Below, piece after piece: positions 43,708-48,938 of a DNA stretch of 64,000 nt. Position 1 is the stretch's first letter, and each line of letters starts with the position of its first letter. The notes below the pieces were generated by a model. That model did not search any database. It saw only the letters and a program-made list of their open reading frames with translations, and had not been told where the DNA came from. The position numbers were made by a program, and so were the translations under genes. The DNA is from Psychroflexus planctonicus (GTDB taxonomy: Bacteria; Bacteroidota; Bacteroidia; Flavobacteriales; Flavobacteriaceae): the NCBI RefSeq assembly GCF_014640195.1, contig NZ_BMGM01000001.1, positions 124,001 through 188,000 of the forward strand, written 5' to 3'.

Positions 43708-44355
43708 ATGAAACATCTACTTTACCCGGTTATTTTTCTATTTTTCTTTTCCTTGAAGCCTGTTTTAGCACAAGAGAAAAACAGTATTAATCAGAATGAA
43801 ATAAGCATTCAAAAAACGGATAACGATATTTTTGAAATGGGTTACATCGATTTTAGAATCATTTCGCCTACTGCCTTAGGAAATCATTTTTTAAATGAAG
43901 GCTATAATCAAGATGTTGCTGGCTTTGAATTGTATATGAATATCTATAAAGTTTATAATTTTAGAATTGGATTTGGACATTCTCGTTTTGGCTCTTCTTT
44001 AACCGATGCATCCTTGGCGGGCAATTTTAAACGCGCTAATTACCGAAGTTATTATGTACAAGTCTCCTATGCAATTTATCGAACCAATTTACTAGAAACA
44101 GGCTTAAATTTGGGTTATGGAATTAATTATTTTAGGCAAATTACACGTGGAGATCGTCGGGGAAGTTACAACACAGGTGAATTAAGAGCTGGCATTTACG
44201 GTCGCTATCAATTTGCTGAAAATTTTGGATTAAGTTTTGGGGCAAATTATTTAACTACAAATAAAGACATTAAAAGCTCAAATGTTGGCAAAGATTTATT
44301 TGGAAGTACGCATATAATTTATCCTTATATTGGTTTATATATCAATTTTGAATAG
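43708..44355 (+). CDS. Outer-membrane beta-barrel protein, hypothetical
   Basis: A 215-residue protein with a cleavable signal (FSLKPVLAQ) and alternating aromatic/Gly strands (FRIGFGHSRFGSS, YYVQVSYAIYRTN, LNLGYGINYFRQ), ending in a typical barrel terminus (YPYIGLYINFE, final Phe-Glu). The frame is open 16 codons further upstream, but ATG at 43708 gives the natural signal peptide and lies just after the lipoprotein stop. No specific family recognised. Its 3' end overlaps the -33 region of the riboswitch promoter. Confidence 0.78.
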   Translation: MKHLLYPVIFLFFFSLKPVLAQEKNSINQNEISIQKTDNDIFEMGYIDFRIISPTALGNHFLNEGYNQDVAGFELYMNIYKVYNFRIGFGHSRFGSSLTDASLAGNFKRANYRSYYVQVSYAIYRTNLLETGLNLGYGINYFRQITRGDRRGSYNTGELRAGIYGRYQFAENFGLSFGANYLTTNKDIKSSNVGKDLFGSTHIIYPYIGLYINFE

Positions 44356-44381
44356 CATTTTATAATTTAATTTTATATTTG
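44347..44381 (+). promoter_or_regulatory. Promoter of the fluoride riboswitch/CLC unit
   Basis: TTTG (44347-44350) and TATATTTG (44374-44381) match the Bacteroidota TTG...TAnnTTTG pattern with 23 bases between. The predicted RNA start falls at about 44388, exactly before the aptamer. Confidence 0.65.
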
Positions 44382-44389
44382 CTTTAAAA

Positions 44390-44458
44390 TAGGCAATGAT
44401 GTCTGCCTCGAACCGCCCAAACGCTAATGACGTCTACTTAACAAACTATATAAAGTAG
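44390..44458 (+). promoter_or_regulatory. Fluoride riboswitch (crcB motif) with expression hairpin
   Basis: The aptamer consensus is clear: stem AGGCA (44391-44395)/TGCCT (44404-44408) around ATGATGTC, then AACCGCC (44411-44417) and GCTAATGACGTCTAC (44423-44437). This is the conserved fluoride aptamer arrangement. Immediately after, CTACTT (44434-44439) can pair AAGTAG (44453-44458), five bases before the TTG start of the CLC gene. This alternative hairpin shares bases with the conserved 3' end of the aptamer, so fluoride binding would be expected to free the start region. Confidence 0.9.
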
Positions 44459-44463
44459 TCATT

Positions 44464-45723
44464 TTGCGTACACAACAATTTTATCCGTATTTAAAAAAAG
44501 TAATTTCATACCTTTTAAAATGGACTTTGCTGAGCTTACTCGTTGGCAGCCTTGTTGGTAGCGCTTCCGCTTTTTTCTTAGTTGCCTTGAGATGGGCAAC
44601 TCAATTCCGGGAAATGAATATCTGGGTAATTGTATGCTTGCCTTTAGGTGGTTTGTTAATTGGTTACATTTATTATTGGTTAGGCAAAGCAATAGAAAAA
44701 GGAAATAATTTGGTTTTGGAAGAATATTACCAACCCAACAAAACCATTCCTTTTAAAATGGCTCCTTTGGTTTTGTTTGGCACCGTAGCAACTCACTTTT
44801 TTGGTGGTTCAGCCGGTCGAGAAGGCACCGCCATACAAATGGGCGCGGCTATCGCCGATCAATTTTCTAAAATTCTGAAGCGTTTTCACCTCGATCGAAA
44901 GATTTTACTCATCATGGGAATAAGCGCTGGTTTTGCATCGGTTTTTGGAACACCGCTCGCTGGTTGTATTTTTGCATTAGAAGTTTTAGTGATTCGAAAA
45001 ATAAATTGGAAAGCCATTTTTCCGAGTTTACTGGTTGCGTTAGTAGCCGATATTTTTTGTGCTCGAGGTTGGCAAGTTCCACATACGCATTACTACATTA
45101 CAGAAATAGCCAATTACAGCATCATTAATTTACTTTGGGCCGTATTTGCGGGAGTTGCGTTTGGTTTTACTGCAATGGTATTTTCTAAATCGAAAGTATT
45201 CTTTAAAAATGTATTCCAAAAAATCAAGTTTGCACCACTTCGTCCTTTTATGGGTGGAATTGTAATTGCGCTTTTTGTATTTTCCATAGGAAGCACAAAA
45301 TACTTGGGTTTAGGAATTCCGATTATTGAAGCGGCTTTTTCCAGTCCTTTAGAACCCTATGATTTTGCTATAAAAGTTCTTTTAACCGCTTTTACTTTAG
45401 GCGCAGGTTTTAAAGGTGGTGAAGTTACTCCGCTTTTCTTTATGGGCGCCACTTTGGGAAATGCCTTATTTTTATTTGTACCTCTGCCTATGTCTTTGTT
45501 AGCAGGAATGGGATTTGTAGCCGTTTTTGCAGGAGCAACCAACACGCCACTAGCTTGCATGGTTATGGGAATGGAATTATTTGGGGTAGAAGGTGGTGTT
45601 TTCATTGCTATAGCTTGTGTAACAGCTTATTTTGTTTCCGGTCAAACCAGTGTGTATACTTCACAAAATAAGAGCAAACTTAAACATGGATTGTATGCTT
45701 TTTTGAAATTGAAGAAGGTCTAG
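44464..45723 (+). CDS. CLC-F type fluoride/proton antiporter (annotated generically as chloride channel)
   Basis: CLC fold, 419 residues, about 14-16 hydrophobic segments, no CBS domains. Gating-Glu motif is GREGTAIQMG, with Thr where Cl-type CLCs have Pro; the first selectivity loop is GNNLV in place of GSGIP; the later motif is KGGEVTPLFF, whose Glu and Thr are hallmarks of the fluoride-exporting CLC-F branch. A fluoride riboswitch directly upstream fits that substrate. TTG at 44464 is the start, as no in-frame ATG lies near the start of the first helix. Confidence 0.92.
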   Translation: MRTQQFYPYLKKVISYLLKWTLLSLLVGSLVGSASAFFLVALRWATQFREMNIWVIVCLPLGGLLIGYIYYWLGKAIEKGNNLVLEEYYQPNKTIPFKMAPLVLFGTVATHFFGGSAGREGTAIQMGAAIADQFSKILKRFHLDRKILLIMGISAGFASVFGTPLAGCIFALEVLVIRKINWKAIFPSLLVALVADIFCARGWQVPHTHYYITEIANYSIINLLWAVFAGVAFGFTAMVFSKSKVFFKNVFQKIKFAPLRPFMGGIVIALFVFSIGSTKYLGLGIPIIEAAFSSPLEPYDFAIKVLLTAFTLGAGFKGGEVTPLFFMGATLGNALFLFVPLPMSLLAGMGFVAVFAGATNTPLACMVMGMELFGVEGGVFIAIACVTAYFVSGQTSVYTSQNKSKLKHGLYAFLKLKKV

Positions 45724-48355: not shown

Positions 48356-48700
48356 TTAGTATTTTAGAATTTTATTGAGTGTTTCTTTAATTTTTTCTAG
48401 TTCTTTATTAGAAATTCTACCAACCTTTTTTTTGAATCTTAATTTAGATAAGGAACGAGCATGAAATACCATAATCTCAGATTCTTTTTCTAGACCATTA
48501 GTTTCATTAGGCGTCAAAATAGGATGCCCTTTATAATTTTTGATAGAAGAAGTAATAGGACATACTATAACTACATTGAAAAATTCATTCATAGTATCAC
48601 CACTAATTACAACAGCAGGTCTATTTCCAGCTTGCTCACTTCCGACTATTGGGTCAAAATGAACCTGCCAGATTTCTTTTTGCCTAATTTTCATTTTCAT
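48356..48700 (-). CDS. MazF/PemK-type endoribonuclease toxin
   Basis: A 114-residue toxin of the MazF fold. Signatures are the N-terminal GEIW-like KEIWQVHFDPIVGSEQAGNRPAVVIS and the middle VVIVCPITSSIKNYKGHP. These proteins cleave mRNA when freed from the antitoxin. It overlaps the antitoxin gene by 17 bp, the usual coupled order (antitoxin first), and its stop is 2 bp from the paaZ start. Confidence 0.92.
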   Translation of the reverse strand: MKMKIRQKEIWQVHFDPIVGSEQAGNRPAVVISGDTMNEFFNVVIVCPITSSIKNYKGHPILTPNETNGLEKESEIMVFHARSLSKLRFKKKVGRISNKELEKIKETLNKILKY

Positions 48701-48938
48701 AATCTAATAGCATTTGAAAATAATCTGCCATACCTTCTTCTGCCATAGCCATCATATCTTTATCCTTGGCTGCCCTTTGAAAAGACTTTCTATAAGCTGC
48801 TTTATCTAATTCTTCTAAATATACTTCAACAGCCTTTTCTATGATTTTGTTTTTAGGCATTTTCAGATTTTCTGAAGCTTTTGCAAGCTCTGTTAGAAGT
48901 TGATCGGGTAATGTTGATGTGTAAGTTGCCATTATCAA
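48684..48938 (-). CDS. Ribbon-helix-helix antitoxin partner of the MazF-like toxin
   Basis: An 84-residue protein with an N-terminal ribbon-helix-helix: strand TYTSTLPDQLL, helices ELAKASENLKM and PKNKIIEKAVEVYLEELDK. The C-terminal 40 residues are acidic and Met-rich (MMAMAEEGMADYF), the likely toxin-wrapping part. It is the promoter-proximal gene and would repress its own operon. ATG at 48932 is an equally good start. Confidence 0.88.
   Translation of the reverse strand: MIMATYTSTLPDQLLTELAKASENLKMPKNKIIEKAVEVYLEELDKAAYRKSFQRAAKDKDMMAMAEEGMADYFQMLLDYENEN

Follow-up and report, generated by a model that had tools for sequence, protein, structure and literature searches.

A CLC gene of the flavobacterium Psychroflexus planctonicus poses the question of whether its product handles chloride, as a domain-based label would have it, or fluoride, and of how its expression might be controlled. 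We examined the 64,000-nt stretch of genomic DNA that carries it (the window, in whose positions all coordinates are given). The initial annotation, made from the sequence, had proposed a compact fluoride-resistance unit composed of a promoter, a fluoride aptamer and a CLC-F gene, and the aptamer strings, promoter motif and GREGT and GGEVTP motifs that it quoted are all present where it placed them. The covariance-model match and the CLC-F placement described below support that proposal. We conclude with high confidence that a fluoride riboswitch controls a CLC-F exporter at this locus; it would form a fluoride-inducible resistance unit, of a type known since 2012.

For identification of the RNA we compared the whole window with all Rfam models by cmscan, which includes the Infernal check that the initial annotation had suggested. 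The fluoride riboswitch model RF01734 matched positions 44383-44443 of the forward strand with 46.7 bits, above its gathering score of 34. The only other RNA family in the window was a tRNA, and a search of the 3.1 Mb genome for a second aptamer found none, so that the RNA at 44383-44443 is its one fluoride riboswitch. The aptamer contains the core strings ATGATGTC (44396-44403), AACCGCC (44411-44417) and GCTAATGACGTCTAC (44423-44437). A pseudoknot is a known feature of the fluoride riboswitch class, and by complementarity alone the loop strand GATGTC (44398-44403, forward strand) can form six pairs, including one G-U, with GACGTC (44429-44434). The P3 stem is short and is the sole gapped part of the alignment to RF01734. 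As a member of this riboswitch family, the aptamer would be expected to bind fluoride. Across the family Flavobacteriaceae, above-threshold aptamers had a CLC-F or CrcB gene behind them in 20 of 20 genomes; weak RF01734 matches lay mostly inside unrelated coding sequences. We therefore did not accept as real the sub-threshold matches L021-L030, most of which fall within open reading frames, or one in genome G416 that lies within a MurB-like open reading frame.

The gene behind the aptamer (44464-45723, forward strand) encodes a protein of 419 amino acids and starts with UUG (TTG in the DNA) rather than AUG; no in-frame ATG was found near this start. The same UUG start and an identical leader occur in Psychroflexus salis, whose protein belongs to the closest named locus (81% identity). 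The leader and the first ~100 codons (44344-44763) are 95-100% identical between the two species (L037/L085), with mostly 63-88% identity over the rest of the gene and the flanks, and this block looks like the product of recombination or of very strong constraint. The product matches Pfam Voltage_CLC with 235.8 bits, and its NCBIfam matches are to chloride-CLC models only, with scores far under the cut-offs. Its best solved relatives in phmmer searches are the CLC-F structures 6d0j/k/n (6d0j, E 7.9e-62), compared with an E-value of about 2e-10 for E. coli ClcA. The phylogeny that the initial annotation had called for gave the same picture: a maximum-likelihood tree built from 38 proteins has a 100/99 branch that separates the window CLC, 27 other riboswitch-linked Bacteroidota CLCs and the Eca CLC-F from ClcA, ClcB and a second CLC of the genome, with the exact placement of the reference CLC-F and E. 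coli proteins made unsure by their long branches. That second CLC (L031, G000:C5:146398-147465), of about 600 aa, has no riboswitch.

This split between CLC-F and Cl- CLCs matches the residue evidence. In the alignment to 6d0j, Asn81 (44704-44706) occupies the place of Met79 in Eca and of the Cl--coordinating Ser107 in ClcA, the anion-site roles of these residues being taken from PMC12035849. The GREGT motif (residues 118-122; 44815-44829) holds the external gating glutamate, Glu120 (Eca E118), and GGEVTP (residues 318-323; 45415-45432) holds Glu320 at the place of Eca E318, an inner glutamate that is reported for CLC-F and that Cl- CLCs lack (PMC12035849); all three features are on the forward strand. 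Judged by these residues, the tree and the phmmer matches, the gene product is a CLC-F type F-/H+ antiporter, and its family membership implies that it would transport fluoride.

That we are dealing with an ordinary chloride CLC preceded by a chance or decayed aptamer is, in our view, very improbable. The Pfam and NCBIfam names do say chloride channel, and decayed aptamers occur in our sample (L164, below), but the tree and the residues place the protein with CLC-F, and the genome has another CLC, which falls with the Cl- CLCs. Likewise the RNA has every core string intact and an E-value of 8.8e-10 for the whole 64,000-nt window; a chance covariance-model match was ruled out by the score and by the exporter that stands behind all above-threshold matches in the family. 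As to how the locus would fare in automatic annotation, the Pfam match makes the predicted chloride-channel label plausible, whereas the prediction that the RNA would be overlooked is doubtful, since Rfam's default threshold finds it.

The distribution of fluoride exporters bears on the substrate. CrcB was sought in the P. planctonicus genome and not found, so that the CLC-F gene is its only recognised fluoride-export gene. Among 27 Psychroflexus genomes, all five with CLC-F carry the riboswitch and none of the five has CrcB; CrcB is present in 19 of the 22 genomes without CLC-F, and none of those 19 has a riboswitch above the cut-off. CLC-F with its riboswitch and CrcB are thus mutually exclusive in the genus (Fisher p 7e-4, a test that ignores shared ancestry). 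Family-wide, CrcB was found in 4 of 19 riboswitch/CLC-F genomes, one of the four copies being broken (G110), versus 218 of 249 sampled genomes (p 9e-10, again ignoring shared ancestry and with some riboswitch genomes included in the sample of 249). The replacement of CrcB/Fluc by CLC-F supports fluoride as the substrate, because one fluoride exporter takes the place of another across genomes.

Within the 249-genome sample, CLC-F was identified in 28 genomes and RF01734 in 11 of these; in the other 17 no RF01734 match was found at the CLC-F gene even by permissive cmscan, which indicates that the regulation is dispensable. Loss of the riboswitch appears to recur among CLC-F lineages, since a degenerate aptamer remains before the CLC-F gene of L164 (G153) and several leaders retain only a promoter; in L154, L157 and L162 the riboswitch has apparently been lost and a TTTATATTTG promoter stands directly before the start codon. 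Genome G144 carries two fluoride riboswitches (L158, L002): one precedes CrcB, with a CLC-F gene lying farther downstream, and the other stands directly before another CLC-F gene.

Upstream of the aptamer, 10 nt before P1, lies the sequence TATATTTG (44374-44381, forward strand), a TAnnTTTG string that we take to be a promoter -7 motif of the Bacteroidota type. Of 27 dereplicated CLC-F leaders, 22 have TAnnTTTG or TAnnnTTG in the 40 nt before P1, where 2.4 would be expected, at a spacing to P1 of mostly 9-13 nt. Because the motif recurs in this position, the transcript probably starts at the aptamer.

How the aptamer might act on the gene was approached by folding the leader and by comparison. 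The minimum free energy fold of 44388-44470 has -17.4 kcal/mol (z -2.5; 2 of 200 shuffles equally stable). It retains P1 and pairs 44421-44424 with 44466-44469, 44426-44431 with 44458-44463 and 44435-44439 with 44453-44457. The 5' arm of this predicted anti-aptamer helix (44421-44439, forward strand) consists of the aptamer 3' strand plus the next 2 nt, and its 3' arm (AAGTAGTCATTTTGCGT, 44453-44469, forward strand), which has support from both the fold and the comparison, holds the start codon region. The helix would engage the aptamer's conserved 3' strand and, as modelled, is incompatible with the pseudoknot. In the predicted fold both U residues of the UUG are bulged, so that the start codon is enclosed, not fully paired.

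For the comparison we gathered leaders from genomes of the family (397), the order (396) and the phylum (395) and used the 27 dereplicated CLC-F leaders among them. The final 22 nt of the aptamer match (its 3' end and the adjacent 7 nt) formed more stable pairings with the leader they belong to than with leaders of other clades (-11.1 vs -8.1 kcal/mol), and 0 of 5000 permutations were as good; when restricted to the strict aptamer strand, the co-variation was small (236 of 10000 permutations, p 0.024). Compensatory pairs were seen in L019 (ACGUCUAG/CUAGGCGU), L010 (CCUGAUUAA/UUAAUCGGG) and L014 (CCUGUUA/UAACAGG). The leader pairing thus co-varies across Bacteroidota clades, and does so weakly for the aptamer strand alone. 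Pairing near the start codon was found in 21 of 27 leaders versus 17.9 +/- 2.3 in shuffles, which is not clearly above chance. Blocking the aptamer 3' strand raised the predicted openness of positions -12 to +6 from 0.40 to 0.50 (Wilcoxon 2.7e-5); in the window's leader, the start codon taken by itself became less open under the same block (0.66 to 0.16).

These results suggest the following mechanism. A Bacteroidota-type promoter would start the mRNA just upstream of the fluoride riboswitch. When fluoride is absent, 44421-44439 would pair with 44453-44469 and tie up the UUG region, so that little CLC-F would be made; fluoride and Mg2+ would stabilise the pseudoknotted aptamer and thereby release the region around the start codon, after which the CLC-F antiporter would expel F- in exchange for H+. 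The switch is probably of the ON type.

Control at translation is the reading that we favour, with somewhat better than even confidence, because no U-run follows the helix and because Shine-Dalgarno (SD) sequences go unrecognised by the ribosomes of the Bacteroidia, in which initiation is tuned by structure in the start region (PMC6847099, PMC9976891). The same riboswitch and transporter could instead be controlled by transcription termination or mRNA decay, which we judge unlikely. Among fluoride riboswitches, the platforms studied best are intrinsic terminators (PMC11077080, PMC13273304), and some other Bacteroidota leaders (L106, L134, L139) end in a hairpin with a U-run; in the window, however, the helix extends into the coding sequence and is followed by UUUUGCG, with no terminator U-run, and a U-run after the helix was found in only 1 of 27 CLC-F leaders. 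A terminator platform was accordingly set aside for the window. Long hairpins, some of them followed by U-runs, were observed with the aptamers of L106, L134, L135 and L139, which precede CrcB or unidentified open reading frames in other Bacteroidota; in contrast to the CLC-F leaders, these resemble terminator platforms.

It is also conceivable, at similarly low probability, that the riboswitch is functional and the downstream pairing is not the switch, the AU-rich leader simply folding locally. Local folding would fit the weak co-variation of the strict aptamer strand and the lack of clear enrichment near the start; the permutation result with the 22-nt aptamer end and the compensatory pairs in three leaders argue against it. 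As a generalisation to which we give slightly less than even chances, CLC-F riboswitches throughout the Bacteroidia would have in common an expression platform adapted to ribosomes that disregard SD sequences, in which conserved aptamer bases pair directly with the start region, using neither an SD sequence nor a terminator, and riboswitch-controlled CLC-F would replace the usual, riboswitch-less Fluc.

Domain annotation would mislabel this gene as a chloride transporter; the analysis assigns it to fluoride resistance. That riboswitch-linked CLC-F and Fluc nearly exclude each other within one bacterial family, together with lost or decayed riboswitches in some of its lineages, offers a tractable set in which to ask when regulation of fluoride export pays, and the leaders provide a simple test of translational control by riboswitches in a phylum without SD pairing. 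Elsewhere in the window, at 48356-48938, we noted by eye two small adjacent open reading frames that look like a MazF/PemK-like toxin with a CopG-like antitoxin.

In a partial literature search, fluoride riboswitches and flavobacteria were named together only in a review of plant-growth bacteria, which does not establish novelty. In a 2026 study, transcription termination was characterised for 1901 fluoride riboswitch sequences, with Bacteroidota unmentioned in the main text (PMC13273304). The RNA in the window shares with the fluoride riboswitch (crcB RNA motif, RF01734) the core, the two stems, the pseudoknot strands and the downstream exporter, and differs in its short P3 and in its 3' half, for which the predicted partner is the start region and the predicted structure is neither a terminator nor a stem that masks an SD sequence. 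CLC-F antiporters under riboswitch control go back to descriptions of 2012 by Stockbridge and by Baker, cited here through PMC7266159. The window protein resembles this type (6d0j, Enterococcus 'Eca') in its side of the tree, GREG, the GGEVTP glutamate and a non-Ser anion site, and departs from Eca in having Asn81 for Met79, GREGT for GREGV and a UUG start. The Pseudomonas syringae fluoride riboswitch, which served as the translational control in PMC13273304, is similar to that of the window in that control is presumed to be translational and no terminator is present, but in a host phylum that does not use SD sequences it would be the start region itself, not an SD sequence, that is masked.
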